The notes below the pieces were generated by a model. That model made no database searches, was not told where the DNA came from, and saw nothing but the letters and a program-made list of their open reading frames with translations. A program made the position numbers and the translations under genes. Positions 1 to 35,815 of a stretch of 64,000 nucleotides of DNA are shown here, in pieces (positions within the stretch are counted from its first letter, which is position 1; every line of letters begins with the position of its first letter). Source of the stretch: Iamia majanohamensis (GTDB taxonomy: Bacteria > Actinomycetota > Acidimicrobiia > Acidimicrobiales > Iamiaceae); the NCBI RefSeq assembly GCF_028532485.1, contig NZ_CP116942.1, forward strand, positions 3,286,001 to 3,350,000, written 5' to 3'.

Positions 1-1226
1 AGCCGGAGCCCGAGGGGCAGGGCGACCGAGACGACCACGAGCCACACCGCCGCCGCCCGGCGGAGCCCGGGCGACCACCGGGCCACCACCGCGACACCGA
101 GGGGGACCGTGAGCACGACGAGGGGGAGCTCGAACCAGAGGCCGCTGTTCTGGGTGCTGAGCAGGGCGGCGAAGCCGGTGAGGACGACGACCGCCACCGC
201 CACCGCCTCGCGGCGCTCCGGGGTCCACCCGCGCACCCAGCGCGGCCCGGGCCGGGTCCGGGCCAGGTAGGCCGCGACGGCCGGGATGGCCACCGGCGCC
301 ACGACCATCAGCCCGACCAGCATCTGGCCGAGGCGCAGTCGGAGGCGGGCCCACGCCCCCCCCTCGCCCCACTCCTCGGACCGGGCGCCGTAGCCGTAGC
401 CGACCAGGTACCCGAAGATCTCCTCGCGCTGGGCCAGGTACCACGGGACCGCGACGCCCGCCGCCAGCAGGAGCGCCAGGGCCAGGCGACCCAGCCGCCG
501 AGGGTCGCGCCCGGCCAGGAGGAGCCCGGCCAGCACCAACCCCGGGACGAAGCCGAGGGCCATCGTGCGGGTCAGGGCCATCAGGCCGGTGGCCAGGCCG
601 AAGGCCCACGTCCAGCGGTTGGAGAGGCCGTCGGAGCACAGCAGGGCCCACACCGCCAGGGCCATGGCCGCCGCCGCGCCCAGTCCCAGCCAGAAGGCCG
701 AGGCCGCCAGCACGAATGGCGGGGACCCGAGCACCACCAGGCCGGCGACGACGGCCCAGCCCGCTGTCGTGAGGCGCCGGGTGATGCCGGCTGCGGCGAC
801 CGCGGCCACCGCGAGGAGCACCGGCTGCACGAGCAGGGCGGAGCGCACGTCCCGCGGGCCCAGCACCAGGGGGACCACCGCGAGGAGGGGGACGAGGGGG
901 GCGGTGACCGTCTCGCCGACCCGCTGGGGCACGGCCAGGGGGGCGTCGGGGCTGACGTTGCGCTGGTACCGGAGGGCGTCGGCGATGTAGCCGGCCTCGT
1001 CGGGGTCGAGCGCTCCGAGGGCGCGGTGGTGCCAGATCCACACCGCGGTGGCGCCGACGTGGACGAGCGCGACGAGCGCGATCGTCGCCAGCGGGTGCCG
1101 GACGACCCACGTCTGCACCGCCCCCAGGCGGTCTCGGGGCCCGGCCGGCCCCGACGAGGGAGGCACCTCGTCGGGCGGACCCGATCGGGGGGCGACGACC
1201 GAGGTCGCACCGGGCTGGTCAGACAC
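1..1226 (-). CDS. GT-C-type membrane glycosyltransferase, 3' end outside window
   Basis: Integral membrane protein with many hydrophobic segments. A DPDEAGY motif lies at about residues 74-80, in the first extracytoplasmic loop, where GT-C (ArnT/PMT-like) polyprenyl-sugar transferases carry their catalytic acidic residues. It is a clear paralog of the gene at 4089-5879 (shared VPWYLAQR, YGYG, SNRWTWAFG-type segments), so the same role is inferred: moving sugars from lipid-linked donors onto a surface glycan or protein. I chose the GTG at 1226 (MSDQPGATSVV); no better start lies downstream of the 13-bp motif at 1233-1245 shared with its neighbours. The C-terminus runs off the left edge. The exact substrate cannot be told. 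Confidence 0.8.
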   Translation of the reverse strand, partial: MSDQPGATSVVAPRSGPPDEVPPSSGPAGPRDRLGAVQTWVVRHPLATIALVALVHVGATAVWIWHHRALGALDPDEAGYIADALRYQRNVSPDAPLAVPQRVGETVTAPLVPLLAVVPLVLGPRDVRSALLVQPVLLAVAAVAAAGITRRLTTAGWAVVAGLVVLGSPPFVLAASAFWLGLGAAAAMALAVWALLCSDGLSNRWTWAFGLATGLMALTRTMALGFVPGLVLAGLLLAGRDPRRLGRLALALLLAAGVAVPWYLAQREEIFGYLVGYGYGARSEEWGEGGAWARLRLRLGQMLVGLMVVAPVAIPAVAAYLARTRPGPRWVRGWTPERREAVAVAVVVLTGFAALLSTQNSGLWFELPLVVLTVPLGVAVVARWSPGLRRAAAVWLVVVSVALPLGLR

Positions 1227-1232
1227 GGCGGC

Positions 1233-1245
1233 GATGGTCCCACAG
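1233..1245 (-). promoter_or_regulatory. Shared upstream motif, copy 1
   Basis: Coding-strand CTGTGGGACCATC, 7 nt before the GTG of the membrane glycosyltransferase. Near-identical 13-mers precede the next two minus-strand genes (4006-4018 and 5907-5919). Promoter element or operator; function inferred from recurrence only. Confidence 0.4.
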
Positions 1246-1301
1246 GGCGACGGCGGGGCGACCCCTCCGGCAGCCCGGCGGGGGCGGTCGGGTGGGAGCC
1301 G

Positions 1302-3941
1302 TCACCCGCACGACCCCACGGCCTGGTCCTCGCTGGCTCCCCCGTTCTCCAGGAAGTACTCGTCTCGGGGGTGCAGGTCGCGGTTCTGGGCCGAGGGGTC
1401 CGGGGCGGCGGCGACGGACCCGTCGTTCAGGCACTCGGGGCGGAGGTCGGCGAGGAAGGCCCGGAGCGACGACCGCTGGGGCTCGGGGAAGGCGCCCGCG
1501 GCCAGCCGGTCGTAGCGCTCCACCAGGACCTCTGGGCGCAGGTCGAGGGGCGACCGGCTGGCCAGGAAGAGCCGGGAGTCGTTGTAGGAGGCGACCGTCA
1601 CCGCGGCGACGTAGGGGAAGGTCGTGGTGGCGGCGTTGTGGACCCGGTAGGTCGGCAGCCACCCCGCCGCGATGCCGTCCGCGCTGAGCCGGGAGGACAT
1701 GAGGGCGAAGAACTCCTGGGAGAACAGGTTCCCTGCGCCGGCCGAGGTCGGGCGGCTGTGGTCGGGCACGATGATGTCGTAGACGTCGTCGTGGGTGAGG
1801 AGGTGGCGGCGTCCGTCGCCGACGAGGGCCTCGTGGCGGGGGTCGGTGGCCAGGCGCACGAAGTCGGCCTCCCCGCGGTCCGCCAGGTCGGTGACGATGT
1901 CGTAGTTGCCCCCGCACAGCTCGACGCTCGTGACCCGGTCGGGCCGCTCGCTGGCGAGCATGGCGAAGCTGGTCGAGCCGATGCCGAACCCCACCGCCAG
2001 GGCGCGCTCCGGGGCGGGGTGGGCGAGGGCGGGGAGGAGCCCGATCAACACGTGGAAGTCGTCGAAGGGGTGGCCGTTCTGGCTGGCCCCGTTCAGCGTG
2101 AGCTGGGTGCCCCCGGCGCCGAAGTCCTTCAGGGCCGAGGCGCAGGCCCGGGTCTCGGCCAGCAGCAGGGCGTCGGGCTCGGTGCCGTTGAGCTCGGCCC
2201 AGAGCTCCCTGTTCGACGGCAGGGCCACCACCGCGACGAGGAGGAACGCCGCCGCCACCGCCACCTGCACGCCTCCCCGCGCCGTGCGCCCCGAGCGGAC
2301 GGCGGCCGCGAGACCTGCGAGCAGCAGGGGGACGGCGAGGGCCACGTAGGTGCCCGCCACCCCCAGGCGGTCGATCAGGACGAAGCCCGTGAGGAGCGTC
2401 CCGACGACGTTGCCGGCGAGGTTCGCGCACACCATGGCGCCGGTCCCCCGGCCGATCCGGGCCAGGTCGCGGGCCACGATGCGCGCCACGAAGGGGAACC
2501 CGGCGCCCATGAGGAGCACGGGCCCGGCCATGAGGGCGAGGGGGAGCACGAGCCCGAACGTGAGGAGGTCACCCCGCGCCGCGACGTCGATGCCGGAGGC
2601 GAACCCGTCGGAGGTGTACCACCGGTCGAGCCGGGGGCCGACGCCCACCGAGGGCAGGACGTCGAGGACGAGGACGAGGCTGGCGACGGCGCTCACGCCC
2701 ACCCCCACCTGCATCCAGAGGAACCACTGGCGGGGGTCGCGCACCCGGCGCACGAGCCGGGAGCCGACCGCGGCCCCGGCGGCGAGGAGCACCAGGTACA
2801 GGGCGAGGACGTGGCCGAAGGTGTAGCTGTTCGACCGCATGACCCCGTCGATCAGGCGGAAGAACACCTGCTCGAAGCCCAGGGCCACCGCGCCGGCCCC
2901 GGCGTAGGCTACCAGCCACGGCCAGACCCGACCGGCAGGGGCGGCGGGGTCGCTGCCCTCCTCCGTCGCTCCCCCGCCGGCACGGTCGGAGGGAGCAGCG
3001 GCCGTCTCCGAGCCGCCGCCGCTCGCGAGCGGCGGCGGGGCGCCCCCGGGCTCGACGGACCGGCGGCCGGGGGCCCACCCGGGCCGGGCGGCCCGGGCCA
3101 GCACGACGAGGCCGGCCAGGACGCCGAGGCCGGCGAGCAGGGGGTTCCAGAGGACGGGGCGGCCGGAGCGGGCCGCCAGGTACCACGCCACGGGCGCGGC
3201 GACGAGGGCGACCCCGCCGGCCAGACGCAGGATGCGCTCCGGCACGGCCCCCTCCCGGAGCGAGCCGGCGAGCACCGCCAGCAGCGCGATGGCGACCGCC
3301 TCCAGGACCACGACGATCCGGGTCGTCCCCACGTAGCCGTGGGTGCCCACCAGGTGCCAGGTCGCCACTGTCGCGCCGAGCGCGGCGCCCAGCGTGTTGA
3401 CCGCGTGGAAGCGGCCGATGAGAGGTCCGGCCTCCCCGACGCGGCCGGTCACGGCCCGGGCCACGAGGGGGAGCGACATGCCCATCAGGGTCGTCGGGAC
3501 CAGCAGGGCGACGGCGTTGAAGGCGAAGACCGACAGGGTGCCGGTGAGGGCGGGGGCCACGGCCCGGTAGCCGTCGTAGAGGACGAGGGGGCTGGCGAGG
3601 GCGGCCACGGCCACCCCGGCCTCGACCACCGCGAGCACGATCAGCGCACGGCGCGGTCGGCAGCGGTCCGCGACCCGACCGCCGACGAGGCTGCCCACCC
3701 CCAGGCCGGCGAGGAAGGCCGCGACCACCGTGGTCGAGGACGAGAGGTCGACCCCGGCGTGCAGGGAGAGGATGCGCTGCCAGGTCACCTGCAGGACGAG
3801 GGCCGCGGCCCCGGTGAGCAGGACCACCAGCGCCAGGAGCCAACGGCCGGCGCCGACCACCACGTCCACGACGTCCTCCTGCGAGCCGGGCGCGGCGCCC
3901 TCCGGCCCGTCCACCTTGCGTCGGACCGCGACCTCGGTCAC
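1302..3941 (-). CDS. Fused membrane transporter-like / spermidine synthase-like protein
   Basis: About 879 residues. The N-terminal ~570 residues are many hydrophobic helices of the MFS-like type found in 'fused MFS/spermidine synthase' proteins (early segment LVLLTGAAALVLQVTWQR). The C-terminal ~270 residues have a Rossmann methyltransferase/aminopropyltransferase fold (AVGFGIGSTSFAML glycine loop, SVELCGGNYD acidic strand end, VGDGRRHLL). Family members are mostly uncharacterised; polyamine synthesis should not be assumed. GTG 3941 (VTEVAVRRK) is preferred because an upstream ATG at 4058 would put the conserved 13-bp motif at 4006-4018 inside the coding region. It lies in a same-strand row with the two GT-C-like genes, suggesting a role in surface glycan export or modification. 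Confidence 0.75.
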   Translation of the reverse strand: MTEVAVRRKVDGPEGAAPGSQEDVVDVVVGAGRWLLALVVLLTGAAALVLQVTWQRILSLHAGVDLSSSTTVVAAFLAGLGVGSLVGGRVADRCRPRRALIVLAVVEAGVAVAALASPLVLYDGYRAVAPALTGTLSVFAFNAVALLVPTTLMGMSLPLVARAVTGRVGEAGPLIGRFHAVNTLGAALGATVATWHLVGTHGYVGTTRIVVVLEAVAIALLAVLAGSLREGAVPERILRLAGGVALVAAPVAWYLAARSGRPVLWNPLLAGLGVLAGLVVLARAARPGWAPGRRSVEPGGAPPPLASGGGSETAAAPSDRAGGGATEEGSDPAAPAGRVWPWLVAYAGAGAVALGFEQVFFRLIDGVMRSNSYTFGHVLALYLVLLAAGAAVGSRLVRRVRDPRQWFLWMQVGVGVSAVASLVLVLDVLPSVGVGPRLDRWYTSDGFASGIDVAARGDLLTFGLVLPLALMAGPVLLMGAGFPFVARIVARDLARIGRGTGAMVCANLAGNVVGTLLTGFVLIDRLGVAGTYVALAVPLLLAGLAAAVRSGRTARGGVQVAVAAAFLLVAVVALPSNRELWAELNGTEPDALLLAETRACASALKDFGAGGTQLTLNGASQNGHPFDDFHVLIGLLPALAHPAPERALAVGFGIGSTSFAMLASERPDRVTSVELCGGNYDIVTDLADRGEADFVRLATDPRHEALVGDGRRHLLTHDDVYDIIVPDHSRPTSAGAGNLFSQEFFALMSSRLSADGIAAGWLPTYRVHNAATTTFPYVAAVTVASYNDSRLFLASRSPLDLRPEVLVERYDRLAAGAFPEPQRSSLRAFLADLRPECLNDGSVAAAPDPSAQNRDLHPRDEYFLENGGASEDQAVGSCG

Positions 3942-18914: not shown

Positions 18915-19814
18915 ATGGCTGACCTCGGGTACGACGGCAAGGTCGCGATCATCACCGGCGCCGGCGGCGGCCTGGGTCGCTCCCACGCCCTGGAGCTGGC
19001 CAAGCGGGGCGCGCTCGTCGTGGTCAACGACCTCGGCGGCTCGGTCGACGGCGAGGGCGGCTCCCACACCGCCGCCCAGCAGGTCGTCGACGAGATCAAG
19101 GGCGCCGGCGGCGAGGCCGTGGCCAGCTACGACTCGGTGGCCACCCCCGAGGGCGGCAAGGCCATCGTCCAGACCGCGCTCGACACCTTCGAGCGGGTCG
19201 ACATCGTGATCAACAACGCCGGCATCCTGCGCGACGGCGCCTTCAAGAACATGGACGCCGAGAAGCTCGAGCCGGTGCTCGACGTGCACCTGAAGGGCGC
19301 CTTCTACGTCACCCAGGCGGCCTGGGCCACCATGCGCGAGCAGTCCTACGGCCGCATCGTCAACACCTCCTCGGCCGCCGGCATCTTCGGCAACTTCGGC
19401 CAGACCAACTACGGCGCGGCCAAGGCCGGCCTGGTCGGGCTCACCCGGGTCCTCGCCGTCGAGGGGGCCAAGGACAACATCAAGGCCAACGCCATCGCCC
19501 CGGTGGCCAAGACCCGCATGACCGAGGAGCTCCTCGGCGCCATGGCCGACAAGCTCGACCCCGCCTTCATCACCCCCGTCGTGGCCTGGCTGGCCCACGA
19601 GGACGTCCCCGTCTCGGGCGAGGTCTACAGCTGCGGCGGCGGCCACGTGGCCCGGGTGTTCACCGGCGTCACCCAGGGCTGGACCGACACCGAGTCGCTC
19701 ACCGTCGAGGACATCCGGGACCACTTCGACGAGATCCGCGACGAGGACGGCTACCTGGTGCCGGCCAACCTCACCGAGGAGCTGATGGCGACCCTGAAGG
19801 CCCTCGGCGGCTGA
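18915..19814 (+). CDS. SDR (3R)-hydroxyacyl-CoA dehydrogenase of MFE-2 type
   Basis: 299 residues. TGAGGGLGRSHALELAKRGA and VVVNDLGGS are the N-terminal signature of the (3R)-hydroxyacyl-CoA dehydrogenase domain of peroxisomal multifunctional enzyme 2 (HSD17B4). The catalytic NNAGI, Ser in NTSSAAG and YGAAKAG are present. Role inferred: beta-oxidation of acyl or sterol side-chain CoA thioesters. AAGGAG lies 8 nt before the ATG and TAGCGT at 18868-18873 is the likely -10, so this gene, unlike many here, has a leader of about 35 nt. A strong hairpin follows the stop. Confidence 0.85.
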   Translation: MADLGYDGKVAIITGAGGGLGRSHALELAKRGALVVVNDLGGSVDGEGGSHTAAQQVVDEIKGAGGEAVASYDSVATPEGGKAIVQTALDTFERVDIVINNAGILRDGAFKNMDAEKLEPVLDVHLKGAFYVTQAAWATMREQSYGRIVNTSSAAGIFGNFGQTNYGAAKAGLVGLTRVLAVEGAKDNIKANAIAPVAKTRMTEELLGAMADKLDPAFITPVVAWLAHEDVPVSGEVYSCGGGHVARVFTGVTQGWTDTESLTVEDIRDHFDEIRDEDGYLVPANLTEELMATLKALGG

Positions 19815-19836
19815 CCCTCACCGCCCCTGGACGCGT

Positions 19837-19866
19837 GCGGTGCCCGGGCCCCGGCCCGGGCACCGC
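19837..19866 (+). terminator. Strong GC hairpin after the MFE-2-type SDR gene
   Basis: Perfect 13-bp inverted repeat (GCGGTGCCCGGGC / GCCCGGGCACCGC) with a 4-nt loop, beginning 22 nt after the stop codon. It lacks a T-run, as is usual for high-GC actinobacterial terminators. Confidence 0.65.
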
Positions 19867-19930
19867 CGCGTCCGGGCCCCGCCATCGACCGGTCGTCGCT
19901 GCGGAGGCGGTGGCCTGCCATGCTCGGGCC

Positions 19931-20512
19931 GTGCTGTGGATCGTGGGCGCCGGGGGGCTGGGACGGGAGGTGGCCGACGCCGCCCGGGCCGCGGGCACGC
20001 CGCCGGAGGGGTTCGTCGACGACCGCGCCGAGGGCCCGGTGGCCGGCCTCCCGGTGGTGCGGACCCCGCCGGAGGGGGCCGAGCTGCTGGTCGCGGTGGG
20101 CGACCCGAGCACCCGCGAGCGCCTGGTCGAGCGGCTGGTGGCCGGGACCCCCGCAGGTGCCGTCGTCCACCCCTCGGCCACCCTCGCCGGGGGCGTGGCG
20201 GTCAGCGCGGGGGTCGTCGTCCTCGCCGGCGCGGTGGTGTCGGTCGACGCCGTGCTCGGACCCCACGCCCAGGTGCACTACGGCGCCACCGTCGGCCACG
20301 ACACCCGGCTGGGGAGGGCCGCCACCGTCCTCCCGGGGGCCCACGTCGCCGGGTCCGTGCACCTCGGCGACGGTGTGCTGGTCGGGACCGGCGCCGTGGT
20401 CCTGCAGGGCCTGGCGGTCGGCGCCGGGGCCGTCGTCGGCGCCGGCGCGGTGGTCACCCGCGACGTGGCGGCGGGGGCGACGGTGGTGGGTGTCCCCGCC
20501 CGCCCCCGCTGA
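19931..20512 (+). CDS. NeuD/PglD-like sugar O/N-acetyltransferase
   Basis: 193 residues. The N-terminal VLWIVGAGGLGREVADAAR segment is the nucleotide-sugar-binding Rossmann-like part of NeuD/PglD proteins. The C-terminal half is a left-handed beta-helix of hexapeptide repeats (HPSATLAGGV, GAVVSVDAVLG, GAVVLQGLAVGAGAVVGAG). It probably transfers acetyl from acetyl-CoA to an amino or hydroxy sugar, and could act with the WecE-like aminotransferase at 15.4 kb, though the genes are not adjacent. Start GTG 19931. Confidence 0.8.
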   Translation: MLWIVGAGGLGREVADAARAAGTPPEGFVDDRAEGPVAGLPVVRTPPEGAELLVAVGDPSTRERLVERLVAGTPAGAVVHPSATLAGGVAVSAGVVVLAGAVVSVDAVLGPHAQVHYGATVGHDTRLGRAATVLPGAHVAGSVHLGDGVLVGTGAVVLQGLAVGAGAVVGAGAVVTRDVAAGATVVGVPARPR

Positions 20513-20521
20513 CGCCGGGCG

Positions 20522-20944
20522 TCAGGCCTGCGCCCGGCGGGCCACCCGCAGGGCCAGCCACACCATGGGCACCTGGAACGGGAGGCGGATCCACGCCCCC
20601 CAGCCCTCGGCGCCCCGGGGCGGCCACCCGGCGTCGAGGGCCATCTGCCAGTTGGCGGGGTAGACGGCCACCATCGTGGCCGCCGCCAGCAGGGCGCCGG
20701 TGCGCCGGGTGCGGGGGACGGCGATGAGGACGCCGCTGGCGATCTCGACGACCCCGCTCAGGTAGACGAGCTCCTTGGCGTGGCCCAGGACCCGGGGCAC
20801 GATCCGCTCGAAGACGCCGGGCGACACGAAGTGCAGGACGCCGATGGCCACCAGGCCCACTGCCATCCCCCGGGCCACCCGGTCCGGCGTGCCCTGCTCC
20901 CCGGCCTCGGCCTCGCTGCGGACGTCGGTCGGGGCGCTGGCCAT
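20522..20944 (-). CDS. DoxX-like small membrane protein
   Basis: 140 residues with four predicted membrane helices (GMAVGLVAIGVLHFVSP, LVYLSGVVEIASGVLI, TGALLAAATMVAVYPANW, PMVWLALRVAR), matching the DoxX/DoxX-like family. Molecular function unresolved. TACCAT at 20951-20956 (minus strand) is 6 nt before the ATG, so a leaderless mRNA is expected. Converges with the NeuD-like gene. Confidence 0.72.
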   Translation of the reverse strand: MASAPTDVRSEAEAGEQGTPDRVARGMAVGLVAIGVLHFVSPGVFERIVPRVLGHAKELVYLSGVVEIASGVLIAVPRTRRTGALLAAATMVAVYPANWQMALDAGWPPRGAEGWGAWIRLPFQVPMVWLALRVARRAQA

Positions 20945-21062
20945 GGGCGCATGGTACGGCGGGCGCGGTCGCCGCCGTCCCGGGCCCGGACCAGGGGCTA
21001 CCGTGCGACCACGGCCACCCGCCGGGCACAGCCGCCGATCCGACGGCCTCGGGAGAGCCCAC

Positions 21063-23525
21063 ATGTCCACACCCGTCCCCGTGATCACCGGGTACGAGGA
21101 CCTGCGCCTGCTGGGCCGGGGCGGCTTCGCCACCGTGTACCGGGCCCGCCAGGTGCGGTTCCAGCGCGAGGTGGCCATCAAGGTCGTCGACCAGGGACGG
21201 GTCGACGACCAGATGCTCGAGCTCTTCACCCGCGAGTGCCTGGCCGTGGGCCAGCTCTCCTGGCACCCGCACGTGGTGGCGGTCCACGACGCGGCCGAGA
21301 CCGAGGACGGCCGGCCCTACCTGGCCATGGAGCTGCTCCCGGGCGGCTCGGTGGAGGACGCCCTGGCCGCCGGCCCGCTCCCGCTGGCCACCGTCGGCAT
21401 GGTGGGGACCCAGGTGGCCGACGCCCTGGCGGCCGCCCACGACGTCGGGGTCCTCCACCGCGACGTGAAGCCGGCGAACATCCTGATCGACCGGCGGGGC
21501 GCGGCCCGCCTGGCCGACTTCGGCATCGCCCGGATGTCGGGGCTCGAGTCGACCGTGGCCAACGCCCTCACCGGCACCCTGGCCTACATGGCCCCCGAGC
21601 TCATGGAGGGGGCCCGGGCGTCGGTGGCCTCCGACGTCTACGGGCTGGGGATGACGCTCACCACCATGGCCCTCGGGGCCAACCCCCACACCACCGACGA
21701 TCCCACGCCGTTCGGCATCATCCACCGGGTCACCTCCGGGCCCACCCCGGACCTGCGGGCGGCCGGGCTGCCGGACCCCCTCGCCGACCTCCTGGGCGCC
21801 TGCATCTCCCGCGACCCCGGTGCCCGCCCCCGCAGCGCGGCGGAGGTCCAGGCCGCGCTGGCCGCCCTGACCCCCGCCGACGACGGGGCCGCAGGTGACG
21901 AGACCACCGCACTGCTGGCCGCCCTCCCCCCGCCGCCGTCCCCGTCGAGCCCGACCCACCGGGTCGCGCCCACCTCGCCCGACCCGATCGGGCCCGCTGC
22001 CGGGCCGCCGGGTCCGGGCCCCACGGCGGGCGCCCCACCGCCGCCGACAGGAGCGCCGGGTGCGCCGCCGCCTCCGGTCGCGGCGCCACCCGCCGCCGGG
22101 CCACCGCCTCCCGTCGCCGGTGGGACACCGCCTCCGCCAGGCACCCCCGGCCCGTCATCGGCGAGCGGCCGACCCCTCCCCCCGCCCCCGACGGCCCCGC
22201 CGTCGGGCGTCGGACCGCCGCCCCCGGGCTCGCCGCCCCCACCCGGCGCGGGCCCGACCCCCGGCCCGGGCACCCCGCCACCCGGCACCCCCGGGCCCCG
22301 GGACGAGGCGTCCCCGGCCCGGCCCCGTCGGCAGCGGGCGGTGGCGCTGGGCGCGGCGGCGGTGGTGCTCGCCCTCGTGGCCGCTGCGGCCGCCGTGGTG
22401 GTGCTGCGGCAGCCTGCGGCGGGGGGCGAGGCGCTGCGGGTCGGGCGCACCCTGCCCGACAGCGACCTGATCGGCCCGCCCATGGCCGCCGGCCTCGACC
22501 TCGCCATCGCCGACATCAACGCCGCCGGCGGCGTCCTGGGCGAGGACGTCGAGGCGGTGGCCGCCCCCGACTACACCACGGCGGAGGGCGCCCGGGCCGA
22601 CGTGGCCGAGCTCCTCGACGACGGCATCGACGCCCTCGTCGGGCCGGGGTCGACCTCGGTGGCCGAACCCGTGCTCCCGCTGGTCGCGGAGGCGGGCATC
22701 CCCCAGTGCTCCGGCTCGGTCACGGCCCCCGACGTCCCCGACGCCCCGACCTTCTTCCGCACCATCGCCACCGACGAGGCCGAGGCCGTCGTGCTGGCCG
22801 ACCTCGTCGCCGCCCGCGACCCGGCCCGCACGGTCGTCGTCGCCCGCGACGACACCTACGGCACCCTCGTGGGCCAGCGCGTGGTGGCCGAGCTCGGGGA
22901 GGCCGACACCGCCGTCGACCCGCTCGTCACCTTCCCCGAGGGCGGGGGCGACGCCGCCGCCCTGGCCGCCGAGGTCGCCGGCCGGGCCCCCGACGCCGTG
23001 GTCGTCGTGGGCTTCGCCGAGGGCGCCACCGTCACCGGCGCCCTGGTCGACGCGGGGGTGCCGGCCGACCGGCTGCTCGGGTCGGAGGGGGCGTTCAACC
23101 CCGCCTACCCGCCGCTCGCCGACCCCGAGGACCCGGCCGCACTGGACGGGATGGTGGTGGTCGCCCCGGCCGGCGACGCCACCTTCGCCCGGCGCCTCGG
23201 GGCCGAGACCGAGGGGAACGTGGTCTACGGGGCCCCGACCTACGACTGCGCCGTGGTGCTGGCCCTGGCGGTGGAGGCGGCCGGGAGCACCGACGGGGCC
23301 GAGGTGCTGGCCGAGGTCCCCGGCGTCACCCGCGACGGCGAGCCCTGCGGCACCTTCGCCGGGTGCCGGGACCTGCTCGAGGACGGTCGGGACATCGACT
23401 ACGACGGCCCGTCCGGGGCGCTGGACCTCGACGACCGGGGCGACGTCACCCGCACCCGGTACACGATCGGCCGGGTCGAGGGGGGCACGGTGGTGGTCAC
23501 CGGCTCCCAGGACGTCGACGCCTGA
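21063..23525 (+). CDS. Ser/Thr protein kinase fused to extracellular type-1 periplasmic-binding domain
   Basis: 820 residues. Residues ~10-270 are a complete Hanks kinase: LGRGGFATVYRA loop, VAIK lysine, LHRDVKPANI, LADFGIAR and YMAPEL. Residues ~290-420 are a very Pro-rich linker; one membrane helix follows at ~424-448. Residues ~455-815 resemble a branched-chain amino-acid ABC-transporter substrate-binding protein (AGLDLAIADINAAGGVLG, GPGSTSVAEPVLPLV, VARDDTYGTLVGQ). The layout suggests a receptor kinase that senses a small extracellular ligand. TACCGT at 20999-21004 is a candidate -10. A gamma-glutamyltransferase-like gene follows 40 nt downstream. Kinase and fold calls are strong; the ligand is unknown. 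Confidence 0.88.
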   Translation: MSTPVPVITGYEDLRLLGRGGFATVYRARQVRFQREVAIKVVDQGRVDDQMLELFTRECLAVGQLSWHPHVVAVHDAAETEDGRPYLAMELLPGGSVEDALAAGPLPLATVGMVGTQVADALAAAHDVGVLHRDVKPANILIDRRGAARLADFGIARMSGLESTVANALTGTLAYMAPELMEGARASVASDVYGLGMTLTTMALGANPHTTDDPTPFGIIHRVTSGPTPDLRAAGLPDPLADLLGACISRDPGARPRSAAEVQAALAALTPADDGAAGDETTALLAALPPPPSPSSPTHRVAPTSPDPIGPAAGPPGPGPTAGAPPPPTGAPGAPPPPVAAPPAAGPPPPVAGGTPPPPGTPGPSSASGRPLPPPPTAPPSGVGPPPPGSPPPPGAGPTPGPGTPPPGTPGPRDEASPARPRRQRAVALGAAAVVLALVAAAAAVVVLRQPAAGGEALRVGRTLPDSDLIGPPMAAGLDLAIADINAAGGVLGEDVEAVAAPDYTTAEGARADVAELLDDGIDALVGPGSTSVAEPVLPLVAEAGIPQCSGSVTAPDVPDAPTFFRTIATDEAEAVVLADLVAARDPARTVVVARDDTYGTLVGQRVVAELGEADTAVDPLVTFPEGGGDAAALAAEVAGRAPDAVVVVGFAEGATVTGALVDAGVPADRLLGSEGAFNPAYPPLADPEDPAALDGMVVVAPAGDATFARRLGAETEGNVVYGAPTYDCAVVLALAVEAAGSTDGAEVLAEVPGVTRDGEPCGTFAGCRDLLEDGRDIDYDGPSGALDLDDRGDVTRTRYTIGRVEGGTVVVTGSQDVDA

Positions 23526-23565
23526 GGCCCGACCCGCCCCGTCGCCGGTGGTAGGAAGCGCCCCC

Positions 23566-25056
23566 ATGGCCGCCACCACCCGACCGGGACCGTCGGGCGC
23601 GCTGGTCGCAGCCGGGCACCCCGCCGTCGCCCGGGCCGCCGGCCAGGTGCTGGCGGCAGGGGGCAACGCCTTCGACGCGGTGGTCGCCGCCGGGTTCGCG
23701 GCCGCGGTGGCCGAGCCGTGCCTCTCGAGCCTGGCGGGCGGCGGGTTCTGCCTGGCCCGCACCGCCGAGGGCGAGGAGGTGCTGTTCGACTTCTTCGTCG
23801 ACACGCCCGGGCGGGGACGGGTCGCGGCCGCCGCCCCCGCCTTCGACGAGGTGGTCGTGGCCTTCGAGGCCGCCACCCAGGCCTTCCACTGCGGGCCCGG
23901 GTCCGTCGCCGTGCCCGGCTGCCTGCCCGGCTACCTCCACGTCCACCGCCGCCTGGGGCGCCTGCCCCTGGCCGAGGTGGTCGGCCCGGCCGCCGCCCTG
24001 GCGGCCGAGGGGGTCGCCCTGCTCCCCCGCCAGGCCGGCATCGTCGCCCTCCTGGAGCCGATCCTGCTGCGCACCGCGGCGGGGCGGGCCATCTTCGCCC
24101 CCGAGGGGCGCCTGCTCGGTCCCGGCGACGTGGTCCGGAACCCGGACCAGGCGCACCTCTTGTCCGAGCTCGGCACCGGCGCGGACCTCACCTTCGCCCG
24201 GGGCCCGCTGGCCGACGCCCTGCTGGCCGTCACCGCGGAGGCCGGGCTGCTGACCGCCGAGGACCTCGCCGCCTACCAGGTGGTGGAGCGGACGCCGCTG
24301 GAGGTCCCGTGGCGGGGCCGTCGGGTGCTGACCAACCCGGGGCCCTCCTTCGGCGGCACCCTGGTGGCCGCCGCCCTCCGCCGCCTGGGCGACGACGTCC
24401 TGGTGGCCGGCGACCCGGCCGCGCCCGCCACCCTGGTGGCCGCGGCGGCCGAGGTGGACCGCGAGCGGCGCGCCATCCTCGCCGGGCGCGACCCGCTCGG
24501 GGCGGTGCGGCCCCGCACCAGCCGGGGCACCACCCACGTCAGCGTGTGGGACGGCGAGGGGGGCGCCGCCGCCATGACCACCTCCAACGGCGAGTGCTCG
24601 GGCGACGTCGTGGCCGGCACCGGGATCCTCACCAACAACGTGCTGGGCGAGGAGGACCTCCACCCCGACGGGTTCCACGTCGCCCCGCCGGGCCTCCGGG
24701 TGGCGTCGATGATGGCGCCGACGGTGGTCGTCGGCGAGGACGGGTCCACCGAGGTGGTGCTCGGCAGCGGGGGCAGCAAGCGGATCCGCAGCGCCATCGC
24801 CCAGGTGCTGGCCGAGGTGGTCGTCCACGGCCTCGACCCGGGCGACGCCGTCGGGGCGCCCCGGGTGCACTGGGACGGCGACCACACCGAGGCCGAGCCC
24901 GGCCTGTCGACGGCCGCCACCGACGCCCTGGCCCGCCTCGGGCCCGTGCACACCTGGCCGGGGCCCAGCGTCTACTTCGGCGGCGCCCACCTGGTCGTCC
25001 CCGGCGTCGGCGCCGCCGGCGACCCCCGCCGCGACGGCGCCGCCCTCGCTCCCTGA
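23566..25056 (+). CDS. Gamma-glutamyltransferase family (Ntn hydrolase)
   Basis: 496 residues. The N-terminal GGNAFDAVVAAGFAAAVAEPCLSSLAGGGF matches the gamma-glutamyltransferase/cephalosporin acylase family. RGTTHVSVWDGEGG contains the autoprocessing Thr nucleophile of the small subunit, with MTTSNGECSG after it. The usual GSPGG loop reads GSGGS, and no signal peptide is visible, so a cytoplasmic enzyme with a changed substrate is likely. Its position 40 nt behind the kinase-PBP receptor suggests one operon and a link to amino acid or peptide sensing (inference). Confidence 0.82.
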   Translation: MAATTRPGPSGALVAAGHPAVARAAGQVLAAGGNAFDAVVAAGFAAAVAEPCLSSLAGGGFCLARTAEGEEVLFDFFVDTPGRGRVAAAAPAFDEVVVAFEAATQAFHCGPGSVAVPGCLPGYLHVHRRLGRLPLAEVVGPAAALAAEGVALLPRQAGIVALLEPILLRTAAGRAIFAPEGRLLGPGDVVRNPDQAHLLSELGTGADLTFARGPLADALLAVTAEAGLLTAEDLAAYQVVERTPLEVPWRGRRVLTNPGPSFGGTLVAAALRRLGDDVLVAGDPAAPATLVAAAAEVDRERRAILAGRDPLGAVRPRTSRGTTHVSVWDGEGGAAAMTTSNGECSGDVVAGTGILTNNVLGEEDLHPDGFHVAPPGLRVASMMAPTVVVGEDGSTEVVLGSGGSKRIRSAIAQVLAEVVVHGLDPGDAVGAPRVHWDGDHTEAEPGLSTAATDALARLGPVHTWPGPSVYFGGAHLVVPGVGAAGDPRRDGAALAP

Positions 25057-25241: not shown

Positions 25242-26168
25242 ATGGATCCCTGGACCGATCTCATGGACCGGGCCGCAGCCCGCCACGGCATCGTCACGTA
25301 CACCGAGCTGGTCGCCGCCGGACGATCGCCACAGCAGATCGTCCACTGGTGCCGCACCGGGTTCCTCGTCACCGTGCAACGGGGCGTGTACCGCATGGGC
25401 GGTGCGCCAGACTCGCTGCTGGCCCGGGTCTCCGGTGCCGTGCTCTGCTTCGACGGCGACGCCTGGGCGTCCCACCACACCGCCTCCGACGTCTTCGCCC
25501 TCGGCGTCAGCCGCCGCGACGCCCGCATCCAGGTGGTCCGCGAGGTCGCCCTGAGCGCGCAGCGCACCGGCATCCAGGTGCACCGATCGACCCTCCTTCC
25601 GGCGCACCACCTCACGACCCACCAGGGCATCCCCATCACCAGTCCCGCCCGCACGATCTTCGACCTGGCCCGGACCACCGGGCCGCACCGGCTCGACCAG
25701 GCCATCGCCCGGGCGACCCAGCGTCGCCTCTGCACCGTGGCCGAGATCCACCGCGTGCTGTTCGACCTGGGCGGTCGCGGGCGGCCCGGCACCCGCCGGC
25801 TGCGATCCGTGCTCGAGCGGTGGGATGCCCACGAGCCGGCCACCGAGAGCGAGCTCGACCAGGTCGGTCGGGCCCTCCTGCAGCGGGTCCCCGGCATCGA
25901 GTGGCAGGTCCCGATCGCGGACGAGCAGGGCCACATCCGAACCGTCGACGGGCTCATCCGCGCCACTGCGACGGTGCTGGAGTTCGACGGCGCCGTCTTC
26001 CACGACCCGCCGCGGGCCGCAGAGCTCGACGTGGATCAAGATCGACGCCTCACCGCGCTCGGCTACGCCGTCCGCCGCTTCCGCTGGCACGACCTGACCC
26101 GTCGAGACGACCTCACCCTCGCCGAGGTCCACCACCTCGCCGCCGTGCCTCTGGCCCGCCCCGCCTGA
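25242..26168 (+). CDS. AbiEi-like winged-helix / DUF559-like nuclease-fold protein
   Basis: 308 residues. The N-terminal ~60 residues (HGIVTYTELVAAGRSPQQI, VQRGVYRMGG) match the winged-helix domain of type IV antitoxin AbiEi-like proteins. The middle is the AbiEi C-terminal-type region (TIFDLARTTG). The end (EFDGAVFHDPPRAAELDVDQDRRLTALGY) matches DUF559/Vsr-like endonuclease-fold motifs with acidic residues and a following RFRWHDL. No toxin partner gene is adjacent. The gene is bracketed by five copies of a 73-bp repeat, two before and three after, and is the only gene between them. Biological role unknown: it could be a defence gene, a repeat-specific nuclease, or a small mobile cassette. 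Confidence 0.75.
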   Translation: MDPWTDLMDRAAARHGIVTYTELVAAGRSPQQIVHWCRTGFLVTVQRGVYRMGGAPDSLLARVSGAVLCFDGDAWASHHTASDVFALGVSRRDARIQVVREVALSAQRTGIQVHRSTLLPAHHLTTHQGIPITSPARTIFDLARTTGPHRLDQAIARATQRRLCTVAEIHRVLFDLGGRGRPGTRRLRSVLERWDAHEPATESELDQVGRALLQRVPGIEWQVPIADEQGHIRTVDGLIRATATVLEFDGAVFHDPPRAAELDVDQDRRLTALGYAVRRFRWHDLTRRDDLTLAEVHHLAAVPLARPA

Positions 26169-34333: not shown

Positions 34334-35815
34334 ATGGAGTACCGGGTTGTGCGGCGACTCGGGCGCGGGGGCATGGGGGTCGTCGACCTGGCCGTCGCGC
34401 CCGACGGTGCCGAGGTCGCCCTGAAGCGCCTCTCGCTCCACGGCACGCCGGAGGAGATCGCCCGGGCCCGGGCCCGCATCCGCCGCGAGGCCGAGGTGCT
34501 GTCGTCGCTCGACCACCCGACCATCGTGCGCCTCCTCGACCTGGTGGACGACGGCGACGACGTGGTGCTCGTCATGCCCTACCTCGCCGGCGGCAGCCTC
34601 CACGACCGGGTGGCCACCCACGGACCGCTCGACCCCCACGACGTGGAGGTGCTGGCCGACCGCCTCCTCGACGCCCTGGCCGCCGCCCACCGCCAAGGCG
34701 TGGTCCACCGCGACATCAAGCCCGAGAACGTGCTCTTCACCACCGAGGGCGAGCCCCGGCTGGTCGACTTCGGCGTGGCCCGGGCCAGCGACCACACCGC
34801 CGGGCTCACGGCCACGGCCATGGTGGTCGGCACCCCCGGGTTCATGGCCCCGGAGCAGGCCCGGGGCGAGGAGGCGGGCGCCGCCGCCGACGTCTTCTCC
34901 CTGGGCGCCACCCTCCTCTTCGCCCTCACCGGCGAGGGCCCGTTCGGCCGGGTCGACACCGACCCCCGCGTCCTCATGCACCGAGCCGCCCTGGGCCGGG
35001 TCGAGCGACCGCCGCGCGACCTCCCTCCCCACCTGCGCGCCGTGCTCACCGGCGCCCTCGAGCGCCAGGCCGCCCGCCGACCCTCCGCAGCCCGGCTCCG
35101 GGGCGGGACCGACGGCACGTCGCCCCTCACCGGGCTGGCCGACGCCGTGCGCCGCCACCGCACCCTCGTGCTCGGCGGCGTCGCGGTGGTGCTCGCCCTC
35201 CTGCTGGTGGGCGGGGCGGTGGTCCTCCTCGCCGGCGACGGCGAGCCCGACGCCTCCGCCACCCCCACCACGACGACCACCACCGCCCCGGCCAGCACGA
35301 CCACCACCGTGCCCCCCTGCGAGCCCACGCCCTTCCAGCGGTGCCGGCCCGACGGCACCCTGGCGCCGCCCTACCCCAACACCGACGGCGAGACCTGCGA
35401 CGAGGGCTACGAGGACTACGACGACTACCCGCTGAACGGCTGCGAGGCGGGTCCCGACGGCCTCGACGACCCCACGGTGCTCACCGCGGACGACCCCGAG
35501 GTGGAGGGCACGATCGTGCCCCGCGACGAGGTGGACCGCTTCGTGCTGCCCGTCGACGACGGGTTCGACCTCACCTGCAGCGGCCGCCTCACCATCACCC
35601 TGTCGGCCCCCTCGGCCATGACCATGGAGCTCGAGGTGCGCCGCGACGGCCAGCGCGTGGGGCGGGAGATCAGCGCCGAGGGCCGCGACGCGGTGGTGGA
35701 GCTGGGCGAGTCCTGCGGCAGCGACGACACCGGCGAGCTCGACGTCTCCGTGCGGGCCGTGGGCTCCGACCGCAGCCCCGAGCCCTACACCCTCCGCCGC
35801 GACGGAGGCTTCTAG
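34334..35815 (+). CDS. Transmembrane Ser/Thr protein kinase with Cys-containing extracellular domain
   Basis: 493 residues. Residues 1-260 are a Hanks kinase ([46 protein letters not shown]). A membrane helix lies at ~277-300 ([25 protein letters not shown]), then a Thr-rich linker, and an extracellular part of ~170 residues with six cysteines and a predicted beta-rich end ([23 protein letters not shown]). No PASTA repeats. TAGGGT at 34321-34326 is 7 nt before the ATG (leaderless). A dispersed repeat begins directly after the stop. Confidence 0.87.

Follow-up and report, generated by a model that had tools for sequence, protein, structure and literature searches.

A Ser/Thr receptor kinase of Iamia majanohamensis with a predicted HAAT-type substrate-binding ectodomain, apparently captured from transport

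We analyzed a 64,000-nucleotide stretch of the Iamia majanohamensis genome (contig NZ_CP116942.1, positions 3,286,001 to 3,350,000; hereafter the window, in whose own numbering coordinates are given), which harbors a gene for a receptor Ser/Thr kinase that carries a type-1 substrate-binding protein (SBP) domain as its predicted extracellular part. The gene is an ATG-to-TGA frame (21063–23525, + strand) without internal stop, and its translation is an 820-residue protein with the following parts.

21063–23525, + strand: whole gene, receptor Ser/Thr kinase with a type-1 SBP ectodomain (820 residues; translation and Pfam)
21093–21833, + strand: Hanks-type kinase domain, residues 11–257 (PF00069, 1.8e-46; motif positions)
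21834–22337, + strand: Pro-rich cytoplasmic linker, residues 258–425, closing with the basic patch RPRRQR
22338–22406, + strand: single predicted membrane helix, residues 426–448 (Kyte-Doolittle maximum 2.76)
22437–23522, + strand: extracellular type-1 substrate-binding (HAAT/LivJ-like) domain, residues 459–820 (PF13458, 4.2e-29; structural model and fold match)

A first-pass annotation, made from the letters of the window, had proposed a one-polypeptide receptor kinase with an SBP ectodomain, and this architecture is borne out by one open frame that encodes two Pfam domains. The Pkinase profile (PF00069) matches residues 11–257 with an E-value of 1.8e-46, and all catalytic motifs are in place: the Gly-loop from residue 18, VAIK from 37 (Lys40), HRD at 132–134 (Asp134), DFG from 152 (Asp152), and APE from 177. 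This part is thus classed as a complete Hanks-type Ser/Thr kinase, as annotated. The Peripla_BP_6 profile (PF13458) matches residues 469–764 (4.2e-29; 102.7 bits against a cut-off of 31.7), and ANF_receptor (PF01094) also matches the receptor (6.2e-24). Between the two domains lies a Pro-rich linker in which 61 of the 165 residues from 258 to 422 are Pro (37%); the annotation had recognized this linker and put it too short, at ≈130 residues. The single membrane helix that it described corresponds to the sole strongly hydrophobic stretch of the protein, where the 19-residue Kyte-Doolittle mean peaks at 2.76 around residues 426–448 (runner-up, 1.55). With RPRRQR on the kinase side of this predicted helix, hydropathy and the basic patch are consistent with a kinase inside and an SBP outside, a reading made from hydropathy rather than with a topology program.

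At codon position 3, the GC content amounts to 0.985 for the kinase part and 0.989 for the sensor part, much like the 0.993 and 0.984 of two neighboring genes discussed below (encoding a short-chain dehydrogenase/reductase, SDR, and a γ-glutamyltransferase-like protein, GGT-like, respectively); it is 0.85 in the Pro-rich linker, in which codon positions 1 and 2 reach 0.85 and 0.89. The frame runs through without a break and the genome is a single contig, so that there is no sign of an assembly join at the fusion. A promoter and terminator scan found 0 and 0, where 0.0 and 0.2 are expected.

To examine the ectodomain, we built an AlphaFold2 model of residues 451–820 with 15 related sequences, which reached a mean predicted local distance difference test score (pLDDT) of 89.1. 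VIA-align places LivK (3td9) as the top structural match (Z 37.0 over 331 residues, with a root-mean-square deviation of 2.7), followed by LivJ (4gnr, Z 36.5) and a leucine-bound structure (4n0q, Z 35.8). The full type-1 periplasmic-binding fold proposed by the annotation is thus predicted with confidence, and the profile score above cut-off together with the whole modeled fold assigns the domain to the Peripla_BP_6/HAAT group. Proteins of this fold that bind aromatic acids, amides, or urea score just behind LivK and LivJ, many HAAT folds tie, and the fold comparison says nothing of function.

To map the pocket, we aligned the sensor with LivJ (1z15) by profile and placed it in a 21-sequence MAFFT alignment; LivJ residue numbers are counted on the printed chain. 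Ser79, Thr102, Tyr202, and Glu226 of LivJ, which we take to be the contacts to the α-amino acid, correspond to Thr531, Thr554, Phe651, and Glu675, i.e., three conservative correspondences and one changed position, and the loop after strand 1 is shortened. The three conservative positions are as follows.

22653–22655, + strand: Thr531, at the place of LivJ Ser79 (Ser in 20/20 other aligned sequences)
22722–22724, + strand: Thr554, at the place of LivJ Thr102 (Thr in 20/20 others)
23085–23087, + strand: Glu675, at the place of LivJ Glu226 (acidic in 19/20 others)

Cys549, Cys729, Cys762, and Cys768 are common to most relatives (Cys in 15, 15, 17, and 17 of the 21 rows, respectively). Because three of the four presumed LivJ contacts are conservatively kept, an amino acid–type ligand is plausible; we regard an amino acid–like ligand of this ectodomain as likely, not proven.

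Relatives of the sensor were sought in 41 genomes (that of the receptor and 40 relatives), 32 of which contain matches. The nearest are free-standing SBPs, one in genome G011 (43% identity), a paralog in the same genome as the receptor (G000:C1:775542, 42%), and one in G013 (41%). The paralog carries a lipobox, as judged by eye, and a BPD_transp_2 gene lies ≈3 kb from it; the gene in G011 adjoins two genes for ATP-binding cassette (ABC) ATPases and a BPD_transp_2 permease gene. These relationships are most simply read as the capture of a HAAT-type transport SBP as the sensor.

The best matches of the kinase domain in the 41 genomes of the family and order are about 48 to 54% identical, and four kinases of its own genome share 45 to 49% identity with it. 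Judged by eye, the C-terminal halves of these kinases begin with a linker rich in Pro and Ala, which most of them follow with a hydrophobic helix, and their ends differ, with short Thr-rich or Cys-containing tails, a PQQ-type propeller (Pfam PQQ_2 in L011), or other parts, of which the two run through Pfam (L013 and L253) gave no match. There seems to be one kinase clade with exchangeable outside parts, of which the window gene would be the SBP-bearing copy. The PASTA-kinase model NF033483 matches the kinase part (1.4e-60) with 205.9 bits, below its cut-off of 450, and Pfam finds no PASTA match in the receptor, which therefore falls outside the PknB/Stk1 PASTA kinases. A second kinase domain is encoded ≈11 kb downstream (window 34340–35095, + strand).

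We estimated how rare the fusion is in samples of 298 genomes of the same order, 396 of the phylum, and 298 of the order to which genome G336 belongs. Five to six candidates were scored per genome and only sensors resembling the query are detectable, so that all fusion counts are lower bounds; the kinase motif search also overlooked one broken kinase half (L163), later seen by eye, and an absence in this screen is accordingly no proof. The sensor has matches at an E-value of 1e-10 in 98 of the 298 genomes of its own order and, among the matches listed, a kinase stands in frame with it only in its own genome; the inspection covered every one of the 13 further genomes listed with a frame of ≥700 residues (L065 and L124 included). 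The three congeners G001–G003 yielded no fusion. All eight listed genomes of the phylum sample with a frame of ≥700 residues were inspected, and one of these, G336, contains a fusion. Its order is probably Mycobacteriales, the best named plasmid match being from Tsukamurella, at 42% identity. The order of G336 adds at least one further fusion genome, G628, with two such genes (L162 and L163, the latter with a broken kinase half). Beyond G336, the 20 listed places of ≥589 residues in that order comprise these two kinase fusions, eight Hsp70-type proteins, four proteins in which a Gln/Gly/Tyr/Pro-rich part and a membrane helix precede the SBP, and six apparently free SBPs whose frames seem long by chance; the labels were given by eye, except for five of the 20 run through Pfam. 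A scan of 36 loci in named genomes found no kinase HRD-type motif in any frame, with L028 cut by the contig start, and a plasmid collection gave three matching records, in the two examined of which no kinase is in frame; the open frame of an Arthrobacter plasmid copy stops after 257 residues.

The fusions in G336 (P0004) and G628 (L162) share the layout of the window protein, i.e., a kinase, a Pro-containing linker, one membrane helix (by eye), and Peripla_BP_6 (Pfam). In L163 (about 1098–3122, − strand) the N-terminal kinase lobe is out of frame and looks broken, the intact type being found in L162 and P0004. The sensors of G336 and G628 are 25% and 22% identical to the window sensor, respectively, and group with free-standing SBPs of their own order, beyond a 100/100 branch. 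A capture shared by the window gene and these fusions was considered and rejected, given the 22 to 25% identity and the placement on opposite sides of the 100/100 branch. The label count on the tree taken alone (two changes, of which starred branches force at least one) leaves a single origin possible, and the free-standing rows were not sampled neutrally, those on either side having been chosen as best matches to the sensor found there. The two sets of fusions look like independent captures.

Other SBP-containing proteins were encountered in these searches. Eight proteins of 750 to 970 residues (L169–L174, L179, and L180, in G443, G455, G464, G472, and G654; one or two inspected per genome) appear to join an Hsp70-type ATPase, a linker, one membrane helix, and a type-1 SBP; in the four run through Pfam, HSP70 is found in all, Peripla_BP_6 in three, and a weak ANF_receptor match in the fourth, the other four being assigned by eye. 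A literature search on fusions of Hsp70-type ATPases with SBPs gave no match. L175–L178 come from the genus that holds most of the Hsp70 fusions and combine a Gln/Gly/Tyr/Pro-rich repeat with one hydrophobic helix and an SBP (by eye). L184/L205 (G874) and L206 (G829) encode a tandem pair of SBP domains in one open frame. Finally, L032, L034, L035, L078, and split rows (e.g., G002:C1:816858–817922) are free-standing SBPs that seem circularly permuted, with a lipobox, then the usual C-terminal third, then the N-terminal part.

Taken together, the architecture of the receptor, its relatives, and its origin separate from the other fusions found are established at the level of sequence comparison, and the type-1 fold of the ectodomain is predicted. 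With slightly better than even confidence, we interpret the receptor as a captured HAAT/LivJ-like SBP mounted outside on a member of a lineage-specific kinase clade, such that a small ligand, most likely an α-amino acid or analogue, controls the kinase. A number of observations weigh against this interpretation. The fold of the ectodomain does not fix the ligand, because aromatic acids, amides, and urea are also ligands of HAAT proteins with this fold. The Ser79 place is occupied by Thr in the fused sensor alone among the 21 aligned sequences, the loop after strand 1 is three residues shorter than in any of the 20 others, and the Tyr202 place is Phe651, yet Phe is also found there in 15 of 16 free-standing actinobacterial-type relatives. 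The fused sensor differs at 46 of the 119 conserved columns of a ten-member free-standing clade, picked by similarity, as compared with 3–29 of 120–135 for those members themselves. When the comparison is widened to 16 members, the sensor deviates at 22 of 78 conserved columns, but the free-standing L065 does much the same, at 22 of 84. The terminal branch of the sensor measures 0.99 against a median of 0.19; its exact sister in the tree is unsure, the window row being long, atypical in letter composition, and paired with a second long row (L065). No orthologue of the fused sensor was found with which to gauge selection on the pocket. L065 itself (907–3579, in G028), which joins the window sensor in the tree with both branches long, is a lipoprotein SBP followed by two peptidoglycan-binding-like repeat stretches and a fasciclin-like end (by eye).

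These observations lead to the strongest competing explanation, which we judge unlikely, in which the sensor is degenerate, an SBP fold that binds no small ligand and now serves as a structural, dimerization, or wall-contact ectodomain. The 46 of 119 changed columns, the shortened strand-1 loop, the altered Ser79 place, and the long branch would all fit such a history, and L065, with its wall-binding-like repeats (by eye), suggests that SBPs are reused in this way. On the other hand, the sensor retains Thr102, the acid at 226, a hydroxyl at 79, and all four shared cysteines, and the model is confident. The first-pass annotation had named a degenerate binding pocket as grounds for abandoning its proposal; the pocket is not plainly degenerate, with most contacts kept, but it is unusually diverged. 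Part of this divergence may reflect lost permease docking rather than lost binding: the pattern is expected after release from permease docking together with a change of ligand, but also from partial decay.

Permease docking is central to a second alternative, which strikes us as distinctly improbable: the fused SBP would have kept its contact with a Liv-type permease, and the kinase would monitor uptake rather than free ligand. In its favor, the ancestors of the domain are HAAT transport SBPs, and both Peripla_BP_6 paralogs and a gene for a Liv-type permease are still present in the genome. However, no permease domain was found among the subset of flanking window open reading frames (ORFs) run through Pfam, and an SBP released from permease docking would be expected to diverge from the free-standing clade as strongly as this one has.

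The last alternative concerns the genes around the receptor, which are as follows.

18915–19814, + strand: SDR oxidoreductase (present in 8 of the 12 GGT loci fetched, at 87–91% identity)
20522–20944, − strand: divergent gene for a DoxX-like membrane protein (PF13781, 2e-06), 118 nucleotides from the kinase start
23566–25056, + strand: gene for a GGT-fold N-terminal nucleophile (Ntn) hydrolase-like protein (PF01019, 7.7e-86)

A PglD-like gene also sits between the SDR and GGT-like genes. Directly after the latter, positions 25260–26168 (+ strand) encode a protein with an AbiEi_4 antitoxin-type N terminus and a weak DUF559 match just below cut-off. The GGT-like ORF starts with an ATG at 23566 on the same strand as the receptor and 40 nucleotides past its stop, just as the annotation described, and PF01019 matches it at 7.7e-86; by position, the two genes may share a transcript. 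The annotation had further named a lack of conserved synteny between kinase and GGT-like gene as grounds against its proposal, and in the relatives this synteny is indeed not conserved. The GGT-like gene is matched in 17 of the 41 genomes including its own (16 of 40 relatives), with 74% identity to its counterparts in the congeners G001 and G002. We fetched its surroundings in 12 of the 16 relatives (not G005, G011, G015, and G040; some contigs end inside the stretch), and these 12 loci contain neither a kinase motif (pattern search) nor a tblastn match to the whole receptor. The GGT-like gene directly follows the SDR gene in G001 (≈130 nucleotides) and G003 (≈40 nucleotides) and stands back to back with a DoxX gene in G006. 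The gap between SDR and GGT-like genes (window 19815–23565) varies from ≈40 nucleotides to 3.4 kb in relatives where both are seen, and the SDR gene is inverted in G022. These differing arrangements in G001, G003, and G006 place the kinase, DoxX, and PglD-like genes in a gap of variable content. The GGT-like gene is the older resident of the two, and the kinase was most simply placed into an existing neighborhood.

The GGT-like protein has a catalytic Thr (position 391, the N-terminal Thr of the small subunit) in eight of eight aligned rows, and Glu and Ser stand at the places of Asp433 and Ser462 of E. coli GGT. Arg114 of the E. coli enzyme, which presumably holds the γ-glutamyl carboxylate, is replaced by Phe and Ser463 by Met, each in all eight rows; the GGT equivalog model scores 273.1, below its cut-off of 357.85, and no signal peptide is evident by eye. 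This protein may be an Ntn hydrolase of other specificity, and its gene says little about the ligand of the receptor. A receptor for glutamyl compounds acting with the downstream enzyme is thus most improbable: the same-strand gene at 40 nucleotides, the kept catalytic Thr, and the similar pocket places (Glu at 433, Ser at 462) speak for it, and the failure to find a kinase in the 12 loci fetched of 16, Phe and Met at the Arg114 and Ser463 places, the lack of an evident signal peptide, and the subthreshold equivalog score speak against it. The γ-glutamyl ligand that the annotation derived from the neighbor was accordingly rejected, because no kinase was found in the 12 loci fetched of 16 and because of the Arg114-to-Phe replacement in eight of eight rows. 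What survives of its proposed route from an extracellular amino acid or peptide-like ligand to the kinase is the one-protein receptor and, by the kept contacts, a plausible amino acid–type ligand; glutamyl compounds do not. The annotation described the structure well and over-read the hint on the ligand.

Returning to the captured, ligand-controlled sensor that we favor, we envision that a small ligand, most likely an α-amino acid or close analogue, would close the two-lobed ectodomain; closure would alter the association of receptor chains, and this in turn would raise or lower trans-autophosphorylation of the RD-type kinase inside. A rigid helix-to-helix relay is unlikely because the ≈165-residue Pro-rich linker separates kinase and membrane, and for the same reason control by dimerization or clustering would be likelier than a transmitted twist. 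The abstract of PMC6069109 names the activating stimuli of bacterial Ser/Thr kinases as an outstanding question. These signals are mostly unknown, and with an ectodomain from a well-understood, screenable ligand-binding family the ligand could be searched for directly. The receptor also suggests how this lineage may equip its receptor kinases with new senses, namely by exchanging the outside parts carried by one kinase clade. More tentatively, and with rather less than even confidence, we propose that Actinomycetota have repeatedly and independently mounted transport SBPs on cytoplasmic modules via a low-complexity linker and one membrane helix, as a general “SBP receptor” solution to nutrient sensing without a separate adaptor. 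This proposal draws on at least two captures by Ser/Thr kinases (the window; G336/G628) and on cases from two further genera (g270 and g320) in which the module is an Hsp70-type ATPase domain.

How does this receptor compare with known systems? It has in common with LivJ/LivK (HAAT) the fold, as modeled, and apparent ancestry, along with a conservative version of the presumed Ser/Thr/acid contacts, but its sensor is fused to a kinase, is not a free lipoprotein partner of a permease, and is strongly diverged. PknB-type PASTA receptor kinases have a similar kinase domain, whereas the window receptor lacks a PASTA match and reaches 205.9 of 450 bits. The G336 (P0004) and G628 (L162, L163) fusions have the same layout, with sensors 22 to 25% identical to that of the window. 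Among the flanking ORFs scanned, a subset, no separate SBP lipoprotein or GlnX neighbors were found, as would mark a PknG–GlnX–GlnH system. We take both GlnH and the Glu/Gln domain of the Streptomyces coelicolor kinase described below to belong to another SBP class than the window sensor. PknG–GlnX–GlnH of Mycobacterium and Corynebacterium (PMC6069109; PMC9769921) likewise places a Ser/Thr kinase under the control of an extracellular SBP in response to amino acids; it differs in comprising three proteins, with a cytoplasmic kinase that carries TPR and rubredoxin parts, whereas SBP and kinase of the window form one chain. GlnH–GlnX–PknG is thus an experimentally supported split counterpart, from SBP to Ser/Thr kinase, and its authors put SBPs forward as sensors for Ser/Thr kinases (PMC6069109). 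The available portion of a Planctomycetota kinase survey (PMC11032199) contains no occurrence of “solute-binding” or “substrate-binding,” and our literature searches, beyond which we make no claim of absence, did not find the window fusion itself. The closest precedents come from Krupa and Srinivasan (2005; PMC1262709), a section of which treats kinases with periplasmic protein domains, among them an S. coelicolor kinase with a Glu/Gln solute-binding domain and one from Nostoc sp. PCC 7120 whose ANF-receptor domain is of a type binding branched-chain amino acids. As far as that section describes them, these kinases resemble the window protein in joining a Hanks kinase to an SBP-type domain within a single chain, and the Nostoc kinase, from another phylum, has a sensor of the same fold family (ANF_receptor, PF01094). 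Because the nearest relatives of the window sensor are free-standing SBPs from its own lineage, its capture was likely separate from the 2005 cases. Kinases joined to SBPs have thus been known as a kind since 2005, and the window protein is a further case, probably assembled independently.

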